From: Adhaeribacter arboris
GTDB taxonomy: Bacteria; Bacteroidota; Bacteroidia; Cytophagales; Hymenobacteraceae
Length of the DNA stretch: 64,000 bases
Reading direction: 5' to 3'
NCBI RefSeq assembly: GCF_003023845.1
Contig: NZ_PYFT01000001.1
Span: forward strand, 4,526,001-4,590,000
The translations under genes were made by a program, and so were the position numbers. Numbering within the stretch: position 1 is the stretch's first letter; each line of letters opens with the position of its first letter. Positions 29,823 to 43,047 of the stretch are shown one piece after another. The notes beneath the pieces were generated by a model, which worked only from the letters and a program-made list of their open reading frames with translations, was not told the origin of the DNA and searched no databases.

Positions 29823-32591
29823 ATGAAGTATGCAAACAAAAAATTGCCAACCATTTTATTCAAGCCTGGCAAGCTGCTTTTTTTGCTTTTACTAGTTATT
29901 TCTACTAATCGGATATGGGCAAATTCAGTTGAAAAAACAGGAAAACTTGCGGTTCCTTTTTCAACGGTTACGGCTAACCCTTCCAGCCTATCGTTTGATA
30001 CGGTTGTCGGTGTTGGTACTGTGTCAAGTTCAAAAGAGGTAACCATTACCATTTCCGGGGTTTCTTCCACGGCTAAAACGACTATTATAGCTTCAAACAA
30101 CTACAATTTTGGCCAGTTACCTGCAGAAGACCCTATTTTTAATATACTTACTATTACTGGTAATGCTACTGTAAAGCTACGGGTTCGCTTTTCGGGTGCC
30201 GATGTGGCCGGAACTTACAATGGGTTGCTCACTATATCGGGGAATGAAATAACTACTAAAACAGTACCCTTATCGACTACCCTAGTAGTAAAGCCAACCT
30301 TTAATCCGGCCTTTCTTCTTTTTAATACGGTAGAAAGGGCACTTTCTGATGTGCAGGAGTTTACGTTTGAGGTTAAGGATGTGCCGTTAGGTTCTCAAAC
30401 GTTTGTAACTGCCCCGGATGGATATGCTTTAATGGTATCACCTACAGGAGTAAAGGGTTCTGTATTCACGGTTACCGGAAATGGCTCATTCAAAGTACTT
30501 GTCCAATTTTTAGGCAGCCCCACGGCTGGTGCTTTTTCCTCCCAGCTTAGTATTACTGGCAGCGCGGTGGTTTTGCAAACAGTACCTTTAACCGCCAAAG
30601 TAACTCCCAACCCCAGTTTCTTTCCTTCCTCCCTATCCTTCCTCAGCGTAGCAGGACAACCCTCCGGATTGCATGAACTTTCTATGTCGGTTTCTAACCT
30701 CTCGGCAGGAACCCAAACCATTATTCAGGCGCCAGATGGATTTTCGTTATTTAGCTCGCCTAACGCAACGGCTACTCAAAAATTAAATTTTACCGGAAAC
30801 GGTACTTTTAAGTTTTTTGTGCAATTTGATGGCGGTGAAATTTTATTGGATTTTGTGACTAAGCTTACCGTAACTAATATCGAATTCGGCACTAGAATAG
30901 TATTACTGAAACCAGATATAATAGCCAAACTAACTCCGGTAATTAACCCAGCTACTTTAAGTGGTTTTACGGCGGTGCAAGGGGGTGCTTTGTCAGCTAT
31001 ACAATCTTTTGATGTATCTGTTACTGGTCTGCCGGCGCAAGGGGCGCAACCCATTACCATAACAGCTCCCAAAGGATACCTCGTTAGCTCATCCGGCGTT
31101 ACTGGCTCATTCTTCAATTCCTTTATTTTAACCGTTAGCAACGGCTCGATTAAATCAAAAGTATTTGTGGCGCTTAGTAGTAACAACCCAGTAGGACCAA
31201 TTAGCGGCAATGTTACTATTACCGGCAGCCAGATTAATACTAAAAATGTTCCGGTGAGCGGCACCATTACAGCTAAACCGCAACCTACTCTTACGGTGGA
31301 TAAAACCAGTTTGTCGGGCTTTACCACTTTTACCAACAAAGCATCTACTACGCAATCGTACAATTTAAAGGCCGCGAACCTGGCAACCGGCGTCACCGCA
31401 ACGGTAATAGCGCCTACCGGCTTTGAAGTAAGTTTAAGTAATACTAGCGGCAGTGTTTTCTTTAATCAGCTGACGGTGGCGCAAGCAGCAGGCAACATTA
31501 ATGTTACTGTATTCGTCCGGTTAAAATCCCAAGCAGCTACGGGCACTAAAACGGGCAGTATTCAAAACTCGGTAGTCGGGCTAAGTAAAAGCGTTGCGGT
31601 GAGCGGGATTGTTACCGTGTCGCCTACTCTAAGTGTTACCCCGCCAAGTTTAACGGGCTTTAATACCGTCAAAGACCAAGCTTCGGCTTCGAAAACCTAT
31701 ACCTTTTTAGCCGCTAACCTGGCTGCCGGCGTTACGGCTACAGTGTCGGCCCCGGTAAATTACGAAGTGCGGCTACAAAATACCGGTTCGTTTGCCTCCA
31801 GCCTTACCTTAACGCAAAATAGCACCGGGGCCATTAACCGGGTGGTAGAAGTGCGCTTAAAAGCAACTGGCCTTACCGGTACGGTAACCGGCACGATCCA
31901 AAATGCGGTAGCGGGTATTACCAAAAACGTAAGCGTGAGCGGTACCGTAGCCGCGCCAACTTTATCGCTTAGTTCTACACTTTTAACGGGCTTCAGCACG
32001 GTTCCGAATCAGCCTTCCCCTACTAAGCCGTATACTTTCTCCGCTTCTAACCTGGCTACGGGCGTAACGGCCACCGTAACCGCTCCGGCCGGCTACGAGT
32101 TAAGCCTGTCGGGAACCACTACCTTCGCCAGCAGTCTTACACTCGCGCCAACCAATGGTGCTATTAGTAAAATAATACTCGTGCGATTAAAAGCGCAAAC
32201 CGCCACCGGAACTAAAAGCGGTAATATCACCCATACCGTAGCCGGTTTAAGCAAAACCGTGGCGGTAAGCGGAAACGTAAAAGCGGCGGCTTTTACTGCC
32301 ACTATAGGTGCAGAATCAAAAAATGAAAAAGAAGTAGCTCCCCGGTTGGTTAAAGCTTTTCCCAATCCGTTTCATAGTCAGTTTTTCGTAGAGTTTGAAG
32401 CTCCAGGTAATCAATTCGTGCACTTTCGGCTGTTAGATTTGTCGGGTAACCAATTATTTAAAAAAGAGGTGGTATCAACCGGCGGCATACAACGGATAAA
32501 ACTGCCGGTAGGTCCGCAACGAAAAGGAATTTACCTGTTAGAAGTGGTTACGGAATCAGCTCGCCAAACCATAAAGTTAATAAACCAATGA
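29823..32591 (+). CDS. large secreted repeat protein with T9SS C-terminal sorting domain
   Basis: A 922-residue protein. The signal sequence (LFKPGKLLFLLLLVISTNRI) covers about residues 12-34. Seven tandem repeats of roughly 105-115 residues fill residues about 48-830. Each begins with a motif like LSGFTTFTNKASTTQSYNLK, passes through ANLATGVTATVIAPTGFEVS and ends near V-P-x-S-G-x-I. The last three (from 31270) are much more alike than the first four, suggesting recent duplication. The final 80 residues (AFPNPFHSQFFVEFEAPGNQ; GIYLLEVVTESARQTIKLIN) are a type IX secretion sorting domain, so the protein should be exported and attached to the cell surface or released. The repeats look like Ig-like beta-sandwiches, perhaps adhesive. 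No enzyme motif was found. A terminator follows at 32636. Confidence 0.82.
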   Translation: MKYANKKLPTILFKPGKLLFLLLLVISTNRIWANSVEKTGKLAVPFSTVTANPSSLSFDTVVGVGTVSSSKEVTITISGVSSTAKTTIIASNNYNFGQLPAEDPIFNILTITGNATVKLRVRFSGADVAGTYNGLLTISGNEITTKTVPLSTTLVVKPTFNPAFLLFNTVERALSDVQEFTFEVKDVPLGSQTFVTAPDGYALMVSPTGVKGSVFTVTGNGSFKVLVQFLGSPTAGAFSSQLSITGSAVVLQTVPLTAKVTPNPSFFPSSLSFLSVAGQPSGLHELSMSVSNLSAGTQTIIQAPDGFSLFSSPNATATQKLNFTGNGTFKFFVQFDGGEILLDFVTKLTVTNIEFGTRIVLLKPDIIAKLTPVINPATLSGFTAVQGGALSAIQSFDVSVTGLPAQGAQPITITAPKGYLVSSSGVTGSFFNSFILTVSNGSIKSKVFVALSSNNPVGPISGNVTITGSQINTKNVPVSGTITAKPQPTLTVDKTSLSGFTTFTNKASTTQSYNLKAANLATGVTATVIAPTGFEVSLSNTSGSVFFNQLTVAQAAGNINVTVFVRLKSQAATGTKTGSIQNSVVGLSKSVAVSGIVTVSPTLSVTPPSLTGFNTVKDQASASKTYTFLAANLAAGVTATVSAPVNYEVRLQNTGSFASSLTLTQNSTGAINRVVEVRLKATGLTGTVTGTIQNAVAGITKNVSVSGTVAAPTLSLSSTLLTGFSTVPNQPSPTKPYTFSASNLATGVTATVTAPAGYELSLSGTTTFASSLTLAPTNGAISKIILVRLKAQTATGTKSGNITHTVAGLSKTVAVSGNVKAAAFTATIGAESKNEKEVAPRLVKAFPNPFHSQFFVEFEAPGNQFVHFRLLDLSGNQLFKKEVVSTGGIQRIKLPVGPQRKGIYLLEVVTESARQTIKLINQ

Positions 32592-32868: not shown

Positions 32869-34476
32869 ATGAAAACACTTAAACTCACCTTTGTCGCTGT
32901 GCTAGTAGCTTATGGCCCGTTAGCCTTGGCCCAAACCGGCACCTGGAATAAAGCGGGTAACAGCTTAGCCGGTACCGAAAAACTCGGCAGTACCAATAAC
33001 AAACCGCTTCGGTTATTTACCAATAATACCCAGCGCCTAACCATTGACGGCTCCGGCAAGGTAGGAATTGGCGTTACGGCTGCTAAGGCCCGATTGCACG
33101 TTGCGGATGGCTCTTCCAGCACCGAGCCTCTGCCTAATGCCACCATGGTAACCGAGAGCAGTTCCGACAATTTTCTGAATATACTGGCCCCCGGGAATCA
33201 CAGATCCGGTATTTTGTTTAGTGCGCATTCAAACCCCATAGCCGGCGGTTTTATTTATAATAATGAAGATGCCACCAATAGCCTGCAATTCTTAACCAGT
33301 GGTGCCACCCGCATGGCGCTGACGGCTGCCGGGCTGGGCATTGGAACGGTAGCCCCTAAAACCAACCTGCATGTATTTAAAGGTACTTCCGGAGCCGGAG
33401 CGCCTCATCCGAATGCCTCTTTAATTGTGGAAAGCAGCAAAACTAATTTTATTAATTTGCTTAACCCCAACGCCAGTACCAGCGGGATATTATTTGGTAA
33501 CAGTTTTAGTAATTCCGACGGCGGCATTATATTCAGCGGCGATAGTACGCCTCGAGGTTTGCAGTTTAACACGGGCGGAAACAGTACCCGCATGGTAGTG
33601 GCCAGCAATGGCTTTGTGGGTATCGGTACCAAAAAACCAAAGTCCACGCTTCATATTGTTCATAGTGACAATGGCTCGGATGGTTTGAGACTAGAGAATA
33701 GTACCGCATCAAAAAGCTGGAATTTTATTACGGATACTGATGGCGACCTGCAAAATCGTGCTGATGGTAAGCTTGTTGGTTTTTTTGATCATACAAGCGG
33801 TGCTTATGTAACTCTCTCAGATATGCGCAGCAAAAAAGACATTGAAAAAGCTCCGGATGTGCTGGACAAAGTATTACGGCTTGATGTAATGAAGTATCAT
33901 TTTCTCGAGAGCGCACCTTCCGATAAAAAGCAGTATGGCATGATAGCCCAAAATGTAGAAAAGCTATTCCCGGAAATAGTTTTCCATAAAACAGGCAACG
34001 GTCAAGATCAATACGCGGTCAATTACAGTGCTTACGGTGTCATCGCCATCAAAGCCATCCAAGAGCAGCAACAGAAGATAGCCGAGCAGGAACAAACAAA
34101 CCAGCAGCAACAGCAACTAATCAGTACGTTGGAAGAACGCATTGTCCGGTTAGAGGAAGCTTTAAATAAGAATGCTTCGAAAAGCACCTTTACCAGCAAT
34201 AACCGGGTGAGCAGCGAATCCGGCTCAGCTACGTTAGAGCAAAATCAGCCCAACCCTTTTGGTCAAAGTACTATTATTCGTTACTATTTACCTTCAGGCA
34301 GTACCGGCCAAATTAATCTGTATGATACCAATGGTCTGCTGGTAAAATCTTTAAAGGCAACGGAGAACGGCCAGGCAATCATTAACCGCAACGAGCTAAA
34401 AGCTGGCATTTACACTTATAATTTATCGGTGAATGGTAAAGTAGTAGCCGCTAAAAAATTAGTGGTAACCAACTAA
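32869..34476 (+). CDS. secreted tail-fibre-like protein with S74 chaperone domain and T9SS signal, paralog 1
   Basis: A 535-residue protein. Signal peptide at residues 1-21. Two repeated beta-rich units follow, with the phrase G-I-G-x-x-x-P-K-x-x-L-H (GIGTVAPKTNLHV; GIGTKKPKSTLHI) typical of tail-fibre-like and T9SS adhesin proteins. An intramolecular chaperone domain of peptidase family S74 starts near residue 317 with Ser-Asp-Met-Arg-Ser-Lys (catalytic Ser317/Lys322 in phage homologues). It continues through SDKKQYGMIAQNVEKLFPEI and YGVIAIKAIQEQQQKIAEQE. A Gln-rich coiled coil follows, then a T9SS sorting domain (LEQNQPNPFGQSTIIRYYLP; KAGIYTYNLSVNGKVVAAK) at about 455-535. It is adjacent to a similar gene; both are probably exported to the surface. 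Confidence 0.85.
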   Translation: MKTLKLTFVAVLVAYGPLALAQTGTWNKAGNSLAGTEKLGSTNNKPLRLFTNNTQRLTIDGSGKVGIGVTAAKARLHVADGSSSTEPLPNATMVTESSSDNFLNILAPGNHRSGILFSAHSNPIAGGFIYNNEDATNSLQFLTSGATRMALTAAGLGIGTVAPKTNLHVFKGTSGAGAPHPNASLIVESSKTNFINLLNPNASTSGILFGNSFSNSDGGIIFSGDSTPRGLQFNTGGNSTRMVVASNGFVGIGTKKPKSTLHIVHSDNGSDGLRLENSTASKSWNFITDTDGDLQNRADGKLVGFFDHTSGAYVTLSDMRSKKDIEKAPDVLDKVLRLDVMKYHFLESAPSDKKQYGMIAQNVEKLFPEIVFHKTGNGQDQYAVNYSAYGVIAIKAIQEQQQKIAEQEQTNQQQQQLISTLEERIVRLEEALNKNASKSTFTSNNRVSSESGSATLEQNQPNPFGQSTIIRYYLPSGSTGQINLYDTNGLLVKSLKATENGQAIINRNELKAGIYTYNLSVNGKVVAAKKLVVTN

Positions 34477-34654
34477 TCCTAAGTATTTGGCAGAATGGAA
34501 TTTGAGTTAACAAATCTCCATTTGTTATCACTCATCTTATTTCCCAATAACTACGCTTTGTTAAAATTTCTTTCCCCTGCGAGTGCATCAAATTTTAACC
34601 TTCCTTTCTCTCCGAACTATTTGTTTGTCAAAAAGCAACTTAAAAATTCATAAT

Positions 34655-36256
34655 ATGAAAAATGCAAGAATTTCCCTTACAGTTATTATAAGTATTCTGG
34701 TATGTCAAATTTCTATGGCCCAATCTGGCTCCTGGAATAAAGCCGGCAATAGCTTGAGCGGCACCGAAAAGCTCGGCAGCACCAATAGCAGGCCGGTCCG
34801 ATTTTTTACGAATAACTTGCAACGGATGACACTCGATGCCGAAGGAAAATTAGGGATCGGAGCGCTTGCGCCCAAGGCAAAACTCCACTTATCAAGAGGC
34901 GGTTCGGGAGTCCTAACGCCTTTCTCCGGTTCCACCTTAATTGTAGAAAGCGATCAAAACAATTTTATTTCGCTGCTTAATCCGAGCGGCAAAGGAAGCG
35001 GTATTTTGTTTGGTAATGGGAATAATGCACAGGATGGCGGAATTATTTTTGACAATCCAGTACTACCCAGAAGCTTACAGTTTAAAGTCGGGTCGAGCAT
35101 TACCCAACTAGTAGTCACGCATTTAGGCCAGGTGGGCGTAGGCACATTGGTCCCTAAAGCCAAGCTTCACGTATTAAAAAGTAATACGGGTATAAGCCCC
35201 AATGATAACGCTAATCTGGTGGTAGAATCTACCGGAAGTAACTTTATTAATTTACTCACGCCCAGTACTACCAACAGCGGGATTTTATTCGGGAATAACT
35301 TAAACTCCTCCGACGGGGGTATTATTTACAACAGCGGATCCACCCCCAGGGGTTTGCAGTTTAATACCGGCGGTAACAGTACCCGCATGGTAGTAGCCAG
35401 CAACGGTTTTGTGGGTATCGGTACCAGAACTCCCGCCTCCGAATTACATATTGTGCACAGCAATACCAACAACGCCACCATTGGCTTACGGCTGGAGAAT
35501 GGCCCGGCTAATAAACATTGGGTCTTTTTCACCGGTGCAGGGGGTGGTATGAACTTAAGCGCCAATGGACAATTTAAAGGATTCTTTTCCCCTGACGGCG
35601 GTGATTACTTTGCTACCTCCGATGCACGAGCCAAAAAAGACATCCTAAAAGCACCGGCTGTGCTGGAAAAAGTGTTACAGCTGGAAGTAAAGCAATATCA
35701 TTTCTTAGGAGAACAATCATCGGATAAAAAGCATTACGGCATGCTGGCGCAAGAAGTAGAAAAGTTATTTCCCGAAATGGTGGCGCATAAAACAGACGAT
35801 GGACAAGACCGTTATTTCGTGAACCAAAGTACTTATGGCGTTGTCGCCCTTAAAGCTATCCAGGAACAACAGCAAACCATAGAAAAGCAGCAATTAGAAA
35901 TAGCCGAATTGCGCACTATTGTTCGTGACCTGCAGGCTGCAATAAACCCCAAAGCACCTGCTACTATTTCCCCGAATAAAGTAGAAACTGGCGCCGGCGC
36001 CAGGCTCCTGCAAAATGCCCCTAACCCTTTTCACACAGAAACCAGCATCCGGTATTACCTGCCCGAAATAAAAGGAAGCGCCGCGATTGGCATTTTATCG
36101 TCCGACGGACAAGTAATTAAAACCTACCCAGTAACGCAAAAAGGAAACGGACAAGTAATGATTAAAAGCGGCGAGTTAACCGCCGGAACGTATTATTATA
36201 TTTTAAAACTTAACGGTGAAAAAGTAGACACTAAGCGCATGATAGTAGTAAAGTAA
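34655..36256 (+). CDS. secreted tail-fibre-like protein with S74 chaperone domain and T9SS signal, paralog 2
   Basis: A 533-residue tandem paralog of the preceding protein. The start ATG at 34655 gives signal peptide KNARISLTVIISILVCQISM; an earlier ATG at 34583 adds 24 residues that do not resemble a signal. The beta units and GLQFNTGGNSTRMVVASNGF block match paralog 1 closely. The chaperone motif is Ser322-Asp-Ala-Arg-Ala-Lys327, followed by KKHYGMLAQEVEKLFPEMVA. The protein ends with a coiled coil and a T9SS domain (LLQNAPNPFHTETSIRYYLP; AGTYYYILKLNGEKV). Both catalytic residues of the S74 dyad are kept in both paralogs. Trimer formation is inferred from phage homologues. Confidence 0.83.
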   Translation: MKNARISLTVIISILVCQISMAQSGSWNKAGNSLSGTEKLGSTNSRPVRFFTNNLQRMTLDAEGKLGIGALAPKAKLHLSRGGSGVLTPFSGSTLIVESDQNNFISLLNPSGKGSGILFGNGNNAQDGGIIFDNPVLPRSLQFKVGSSITQLVVTHLGQVGVGTLVPKAKLHVLKSNTGISPNDNANLVVESTGSNFINLLTPSTTNSGILFGNNLNSSDGGIIYNSGSTPRGLQFNTGGNSTRMVVASNGFVGIGTRTPASELHIVHSNTNNATIGLRLENGPANKHWVFFTGAGGGMNLSANGQFKGFFSPDGGDYFATSDARAKKDILKAPAVLEKVLQLEVKQYHFLGEQSSDKKHYGMLAQEVEKLFPEMVAHKTDDGQDRYFVNQSTYGVVALKAIQEQQQTIEKQQLEIAELRTIVRDLQAAINPKAPATISPNKVETGAGARLLQNAPNPFHTETSIRYYLPEIKGSAAIGILSSDGQVIKTYPVTQKGNGQVMIKSGELTAGTYYYILKLNGEKVDTKRMIVVK

Positions 36257-42327: not shown

Positions 42328-43047
42328 ATGAAAACAAGCATTGATCTTTCCGCCTTCGCTAGGGCCTGGTTTAGCTTAATAGTGGCTTTGTTACTTACCT
42401 TTTCAGCTGCGGCTCAGGAAAAGTTCTACCGCAATCCCGATGATTTGAGTAAAGGCTACTGGAAATTATATACTGAGCCTGCTTCCCGGACAGCTTATAT
42501 AAAGTTTTTTGATGCCAGCGATCGGTTGCTCTATGAAGAAGTAATTCCGGATAAATATATCAAGCTAACCGATCGGAACGTCAACCGCATTAATCAAGTA
42601 TTTGACCAAATTGTTAGTAACCAAATGGTTTTGGCAAAAGTTAAGGCCGAACCACTTCTAGTTGCTCCTACTCGGCCGTTAATAAACAGAAATGAAGTAA
42701 AGAAAACCCTGATTACGAAAAAAAAGGATAGAACAGGTTCTCGGATTCAAATAACCGTTTTTAAGATTCCAGACACTACTAAGTTTTTTCTGGCCTTCCA
42801 AAACCCAAACCGGGAGCGAATGAAAATTTACTTGAAAGATGCTGCAAAGCAGGAATTATATTCAGAAAATATAAATTGTGCTGCTTATACTCAAAAATTC
42901 GATACGGTTGGACTAGATAAAGGAAAGTACTTATTAGAAGTTACCACTGTTAACCAAAAGTACAAATTCGCTAAGCTAATTAAAGTAGGCCCGGACATAC
43001 CCTCCCTGAGAATAGAACAGACGGACTCTCTTTTGGCTTCCCGCTAA
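42328..43047 (+). CDS. secreted protein of unknown function
   Basis: A 239-residue protein. The signal peptide WFSLIVALLLTFSAAAQ ends around residue 30. The middle is a charged Lys/Arg-rich region (KKTLITKKKDRTGSRIQITV). The C-terminal half has a beta pattern (MKIYLKDAAKQELYSENINC; YTQKFDTVGLDKGKYLLEVT) like the T9SS sorting fold, but shorter and without the NPF start, so it is not a typical sorting domain. No family was recognised. It is 160 bases upstream of the TonB-like receptor, which may be in the same transcription unit. Confidence 0.65.
   Translation: MKTSIDLSAFARAWFSLIVALLLTFSAAAQEKFYRNPDDLSKGYWKLYTEPASRTAYIKFFDASDRLLYEEVIPDKYIKLTDRNVNRINQVFDQIVSNQMVLAKVKAEPLLVAPTRPLINRNEVKKTLITKKKDRTGSRIQITVFKIPDTTKFFLAFQNPNRERMKIYLKDAAKQELYSENINCAAYTQKFDTVGLDKGKYLLEVTTVNQKYKFAKLIKVGPDIPSLRIEQTDSLLASR

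Follow-up and report, generated by a model that had tools for sequence, protein, structure and literature searches.

Two tandem genes of Adhaeribacter arboris, lying on the forward strand at positions 32,869 to 36,256 of a 64,000-nucleotide stretch (contig NZ_PYFT01000001.1 of assembly GCF_003023845.1, positions 4,526,001 to 4,590,000; hereafter "the window"), encode paralogous fibre proteins sharing 52% identity, here called proteins 1 and 2. Both open reading frames (ORFs) contain, in this order, a signal peptide, a fibre, an S74 or ICA domain with a Ser-Lys catalytic dyad, and a type A sorting domain of the type IX secretion system (T9SS) (Table 1). For protein 2 a GTG at 34583 would allow a longer ORF, but the signal peptide begins at the ATG used here. 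Read by eye, the fibre region of protein 1 consists of two similar modules of about 95 amino acids together with VGIG-type loops, and residues 45-176 match the Bdellovibrio fibre chain 8ojn_C (E 9.2e-06). The pair is an ordinary member of a group that is common in Bacteroidota, in which a dyad able to cut the protein and a tag marking it for export are retained side by side; this favours a fibre that may be exported first and cut afterwards.

Table 1. Features of the two fibre genes, in positions of the window.
Feature	Position	Strand	Residues	Basis
Fibre protein 1	32869..34476	+	535 aa	ORF list and domain scans
Sec signal peptide, protein 1	32869..32934	+	1-22, end approximate	by eye and a crude rule
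Fibre region, protein 1	32935..33816	+	23-316	
S74/ICA domain, protein 1	33817..34176	+	317-436	Pfam, motif, model
Predicted cut, protein 1	33817-33819 (codon of Ser317)	+	just before Ser317; partner Lys322	motif
Long ICA helix (predicted trimer coiled coil), protein 1	34024..34176	+	386-436	model
Poorly ordered linker, protein 1	34186..34221	+	440-451	pLDDT <50
T9SS type A sorting domain, protein 1	34249..34467	+	461-533	TIGR04183 and model
Fibre protein 2, tandem paralogue of protein 1	34655..36256	+	533 aa from ATG	
Sec signal peptide, protein 2	34655..34723	+	1-23, end approximate	read from sequence
S74/ICA domain, protein 2	35618..35950	+	322 to about 432	end by comparison with protein 1
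Predicted cut, protein 2		+	just before Ser322; partner Lys327	Pfam and motif
T9SS type A sorting domain, protein 2	36020..36247	+	456-531	borderline score

The S74 domain is recognised by the Pfam profile Peptidase_S74 with 48.9 bits in protein 1 and 55.1 bits in protein 2 (cut-off 22). Its Ser-Asp-x-Arg-x-Lys motif is intact in both, as SDMRSK at 317 and SDARAK at 322, with the residues of the dyad spaced by five (S317/K322 and S322/K327), exactly as numbered in the original prediction, an earlier reading of this locus from its letters alone. Structure models were made of single chains. That of residues 250-535 of protein 1 (mean pLDDT 82.9) runs through stalk strands, the ICA domain, a 51-residue helix (386-436, or 137-187 of the modelled fragment, which begins at residue 250), a poorly ordered linker and a beta-sandwich, and the ICA part modelled alone reaches a mean pLDDT of 93.2. 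When this ICA model was compared with the PDB by Foldseek, MYRF (7dc3) came first (E 1.2e-4), followed by GA-1 (3gud, 0.029) and K1F (3gw6, 0.84). A second PDB comparison placed solved ICA domains in its top four rows, namely 7dc3 (Z 9.2), 3gud (6.8), 3gw6 (6.5) and T5 4uw8 (5.9), the fifth row standing at 4.9; MYRF alone exceeded Z 8, and 7dc3 superposes on the model at 3.2 A over 116 residues. The best PDB profile matches, phage S16 gp37 (6e-22) and MYRF (8e-21), agree with this structural ranking. Residues of MYRF reported to assist cutting, Tyr615/Tyr617 and Gln639, correspond in the MYRF profile alignment, read by eye, to Tyr343/Phe345 and Gln361. With the full-region model, Foldseek gave no PDB match at E 0.001, its top rows being beta-glucuronidases with an uninformative query TM-score of about 0.2; in the second comparison most listed rows fell on the sorting domain and were common Ig-like folds, with MYRF 7dc3 at row 26 (Z 8.5).

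Where does the ICA domain end? The original prediction had let both a coiled coil and the sorting domain follow S74, and while the sorting domain does so, the coiled coil as a separately added part had to be rejected, as it is shared by helix alpha-4 of MYRF, by the model and by S74-terminal proteins. As modelled, it is the ICA domain's own C-terminal trimer helix, the counterpart of MYRF helix alpha-4, the triple coiled coil in which the MYRF ICA domain is described to terminate and which drives its trimerisation (PMC8326128). Proteins that end with S74 and lack a sorting domain also show a coiled-coil stretch. The median tail behind the Ser is 238 aa with a sorting domain versus 129 aa without, so that about 110 aa have been added, corresponding to the linker and the sorting domain.

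Protein 1 has a clear sorting domain, above the cut-off of both profiles (TIGR04183 34.7 bits against 23; PF18962 29.8 bits against 27). Its counterpart in protein 2 is borderline, falling below both cut-offs in a scan of the full protein (TIGR04183 22.6 against 23, E 7.5e-05; PF18962 20.4 against 27), and none of the 141 matches of a six-frame TIGR04183 search of the genome is listed at its position. The tail of protein 2 has the invariant sorting-domain columns of an alignment of 47 members (A1), and the sorting-domain fragments of 47 homologues, protein 2 included, match TIGR04183 without exception at E 0.01 or better, while PF18962 matches 42 of the 47 sampled positives. These counts led us to reject the idea that the calls are an artefact of our working profile, which was built from nine tails of this genome and then iterated. 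Of 185 negatives whose C-terminus is complete, 70 were sampled; the 25 families listed for them, of 28, do not include TIGR04183, so that at most one negative in 70 matches it. The rows found with the sorting-domain half of the model include, among many Ig-like folds, the C-terminal ends of PorU (6za2) and PorZ (5m11) and the C-terminal domain of mirolase (8qb1). The genome itself encodes SprA (2411 bits) and PorU (1386 bits). It has ten S74 matches, nine of fibre type and one short ICA protein without the Ser; dyad and sorting-domain tail are present in all nine fibre-type proteins, eight of which are covered by TIGR04183 matches, the ninth being protein 2.

A review of the system describes the route of type A cargo as follows: Sec carries it over the inner membrane, it folds in the periplasm, its C-terminal domain is recognised, and it goes through SprA. 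At the surface PorU as a rule cleaves off the sorting domain, and the cargo is either attached to polysaccharide there or set free; PorU and PorZ themselves are exceptions that retain theirs (PMC10202324). This bears on the paradox raised by the original prediction, that an S74 cut would remove the export signal. The paradox is real, but losing the signal is no special consequence of the cut, since PorU usually removes a type A sorting domain anyway, with or without S74. The coupling of trimer folding to secretion put forward in the original prediction is conjectural.

S74 proteins were collected from three sources: the same family (matches in 51 of 100 genomes), the phylum (matches in 69 of 247 genomes) and one scan of public genomes (68 loci, 23 with S74 and 45 without), the query of which enriches for sorting-domain proteins, though the dyad is no part of its patterns. 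For the family, 119 of 136 listed matches were taken as loci, 17 low-scoring ones being left out; for the phylum, 100 were taken of at least 103 non-family matches without a locus, among the matches listed. A first removal of duplicates left 284 S74 rows: 69 with fibre, S74 and sorting domain (class A), 189 with fibre and S74 but no sorting domain (class B), 16 short ICA proteins (class C), and 9 incomplete rows that were set aside. One further locus (L155), with its Ser at residue 70, was assigned to class A by hand, and a recount took two incomplete duplicates off class B (187 left) and one off class C (15 left). A "fibre" is here a matter of length and not of fold, meaning more than 100 (class A) or 60 (class B) residues ahead of the Ser.

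Of the two outcomes that the original prediction named together as counting against it, one was that most homologues built in this way would have lost the catalytic residues, and the opposite was found. Ser and Lys are both intact in 69 of the 70 domains (69 rows and L155, in 69 proteins) that combine fibre, S74 and sorting domain, the remaining one carrying Gly and Arg, a count to be read with the slight bias toward Ser retention of a Pfam profile that begins at the Ser. Across 69 aligned class A domains, mean pairwise identity is 29%, with Ser kept in 68 and Lys in 68, so that conservation of the dyad does not merely reflect a lack of time for change. Both residues are invariant in A1, which was drawn from Ser-bearing rows and thus excludes the one dead copy. 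Where a fibre is present without a sorting domain (n=187), 183 proteins have Ser/Lys and four have Cys/Lys, a nucleophile still being present; the four (L288, L291, L293 and L307), in which Cys replaces the catalytic Ser, suggest by their sequence a Cys/Lys version of the dyad.

Short ICA proteins, with the domain near the N-terminus and mostly right behind a signal peptide, are different (n=15): Ser is found in 5, Pro in 8 and no residue in 2, while Lys is present in nine of the ten that lack Ser. Three of the rows are atypical, all of them Ser-bearing (L030 and L222, of different layout, and L082, incomplete), which leaves 10 Ser-less proteins out of 12 once they are set aside. On the counts as they stood ahead of the recount (Ser in 69/70 vs 6/16), Fisher's test gives P = 2e-8, kinship being ignored. 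An ICA-type domain can therefore exist without its Ser. Selection for cutting is thus probable in proteins that have a fibre, and the cut is probably used in fibres with an export tag, since relatives keep dyad and tag together.

The dead copy (L074; G044:C111, 28695-31877) reads GDNSLR in place of the motif while its fibre, coil and sorting domain are kept; it adjoins two intact tandem copies (L029 and L049) and so offers a natural inactive control. Two records with the same C-terminus (L170 and L311) carry two consecutive S74 motifs before a single sorting domain. Among the short proteins, one group of 12 comprises L010 (G000:C1, about 2345017-2345460, ORF from base 1390, 148 aa) and its relatives L027, L062, L063, L075, L083, L089, L094, L096, L097, L294 and L315. 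Their signal peptide, judged by eye, stops a few residues before the Ser position, and neither fibre nor sorting domain is present; Ser is gone in 10 of the 12 (Pro in 8) and Lys stays in 9 of those 10. Such proteins resemble a pre-cut chaperone domain and might act in trans on fibres.

Seven family groups within the genome set contain the full arrangement, which also turns up in records from Saprospiraceae, Lewinellaceae, Kapaibacteriaceae and Ignavibacteriota. On a FastTree phylogeny of S74 (130 columns, dyad columns removed), the 257 domains require at least 19 changes of sorting-domain status; in a tree compared with no shuffled labels and with gain and loss indistinguishable, this does no more than hint at a tag that moves as a module.

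How do known systems compare? The domain layout is, by analogy, the geometry of MYRF moved to the cell surface. MYRF likewise has an internal ICA domain behind a beta-helical stalk, with the Ser-Lys dyad and coiled-coil helix, and is reported to be cut before Ser587 (PMC8326128); a C-terminal module fixes it to the membrane, and self-cutting frees the N-terminal trimer (PMC3742443). It differs in being a eukaryotic, intracellular transcription factor with DNA-binding and transmembrane domains and no export signal, and no DNA-binding domain is among the Pfam matches of the two proteins. The pair would thus work like MYRF without being a member of its family. A second parallel is the S74 group of the Bdellovibrio MAT family, represented by Bd3182, a bacterial surface trimeric fibre reported to cut itself at Ser782 (PMC10769870). 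The beta-helix similarity of protein 1 to 8ojn fits this likeness; in that group, however, which is defined by a conserved N-terminal domain of about 130 aa, S74 is the C-terminus and there is no T9SS sorting domain, whereas here one follows. Self-cutting is also described for phage T5 pb1 and for phage S16 gp37, the latter cut at S^SDRRIKK after trimerisation (PMC7917993). The phage fibres and spikes (endosialidase NF, T5 pb1, S16 gp37, GA-1 gp12) share the related ICA fold or profile and the same dyad, but they are virion parts with no outer-membrane export, and their ICA domain stands at the end and is removed by the cut, while here S74 is followed by a linker and a sorting domain. The claim that S74 stands last and cuts itself thus holds for phage fibres; it fails as a general rule, MYRF having its S74 inside, with a membrane anchor behind. 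As type A cargo, finally, the proteins share a signal peptide and a TIGR04183 sorting domain with RemA and the gingipains, here in a genome with SprA and PorU; to our knowledge, neither RemA nor the gingipains have a self-cutting trimerisation domain directly ahead of the sorting domain.

From the domains, the conserved dyad, the predicted ICA and sorting-domain folds and the encoded T9SS, we infer trimerisation, cutting, cutting after export and a binding target for the fibre. Each gene would yield a secreted, adhesin-like trimeric fibre with a built-in self-cutting assembly domain. The chain would be exported by Sec, its C-terminal sorting domain recognised, and the still uncut chain passed through SprA; PorU would remove the sorting domain, and the new C-terminus would be linked to surface polysaccharide or the protein released. 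The ICA coiled coils would then trimerise (the long C-terminal helix is present in the model, the homotrimer is predicted) and the fibre fold on the trimer, whereupon correct trimerisation would position the dyad for a cut just before Ser317 or Ser322. The finished fibre trimer would be freed, while the ICA domain and coil would be retained by the anchor or shed. What the S74 cut would add is to detach the fibre from ICA domain and coil, together with anything that PorU had joined on behind. Were the cut to come before export, the fibre would be left behind unless it stayed joined to the other piece, so that the retention of both tag and dyad favours export first. A C-terminal extension need not block cutting, as suggested by MYRF, which cuts itself with a membrane anchor behind its ICA domain (PMC3742443), and by Bd3182 carrying a C-terminal mCherry, the location of which was reportedly abolished by changing the Ser (PMC10769870). 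We give this order of events, export of a trimeric adhesin-like fibre followed by its self-cutting, about an even chance.

Several points weigh against it. A review has T9SS cargo folded already in the periplasm, ahead of its export (PMC10202324), and MYRF seemed to be processed constitutively (PMC3742443), both of which favour an early, periplasmic cut. The Lys kept in nine of ten short proteins without Ser indicates that its conservation is not purely catalytic; a homologue without both residues, L074, still has fibre, coil and sorting domain; and export first gives no account of how uncut chains avoid assembling in the periplasm.

A more specific version, less likely than not, makes the domain a widespread MYRF-like release device: T9SS would export and anchor the uncut chain, and trimerisation outside the cell would trigger its cut from its own anchor. 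Only correctly assembled fibres would then be set free, and the dead tandem copy L074 could serve as a permanently anchored or damping subunit.

If trimerisation and cutting both took place in the periplasm instead, the fibre and the piece with ICA and sorting domains, joined non-covalently, would have to pass SprA as one particle. The reported periplasmic folding of cargo and the size of SprA, a 36-strand barrel (PMC10202324), would suit this, as would the reported cutting of the characterised ICA domains considered here on their own; against it, the T5 paper argues that the contact between ICA domain and fibre should not be too strong if the chaperone is to leave, and the MYRF ICA domain is described as barely contacting its stalk (PMC8326128). 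Passage as one particle is unlikely. So, too, though for other reasons, does it seem improbable that the domain builds the trimer without any cut, with Ser and Lys kept for structure. The Lys of the Ser-less short proteins and the layout of L074 are what speaks for such a pure chaperone, and they are set against the loss of Ser in 10 of 15 short proteins but in just one of 70 domains with a sorting domain, against its replacement solely by Cys (4/187) in fibre proteins without one, and against the cutting of characterised relatives such as MYRF and S16 gp37.

Very doubtful is a reading in which the sorting domain is there for the chaperone once that is spent: the fibre would mature and stay in the periplasm while T9SS disposed of the ICA piece, a kind of disposal of which we know no example. 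The 187 fibre S74 proteins of the same phylum without a recognisable sorting domain would fit it, but the related Bdellovibrio MAT fibres are seen on the cell surface (PMC10769870). We rejected an origin as prophage tail fibre genes, which is hardly credible in spite of the S74 domain and a fibre weakly resembling the tail fibres of phages (97 phage records, all below 60% identity and none spanning 80% of the query), given the signal peptides and sorting domain and the lack of virion genes nearby: ten neighbouring proteins scanned at E 1e-5 have no phage domain, and exact peptide patterns taken from protein 1, able to detect close relatives only, hit no relative in the viral contigs.

The component parts are already known, as are an internal ICA domain before a membrane anchor (MYRF) and bacterial surface S74 fibres (Bdellovibrio); a literature search, with subscription journals mostly outside it and its broader parts judged on the title or opening of the abstract for the top 15 to 20 of 21, 332 and 5,378 papers, found no paper on S74 ahead of a T9SS sorting domain. 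Were export followed by self-cutting to hold true, it would be a bacterial surface use of a mechanism known from MYRF and phages. Because known ICA relatives cut only after trimerising, the domain would, if the cut occurs, report from within a T9SS cargo on the time and place of its folding. It would thereby become testable in which state SprA lets its cargo through, as unfolded chain, folded monomer or folded trimer.

Elsewhere in the window, an ORF of 239 aa (42328-43047) has a barely significant sorting-domain match (22.8 bits, or 23.3 with neighbours) and gave no match in a Pfam scan at E 1e-5. The gene directly upstream of the pair (29823-32591) encodes a repetitive protein of 922 aa, likewise a type A cargo of the T9SS by its TIGR04183 match (36.6 bits).

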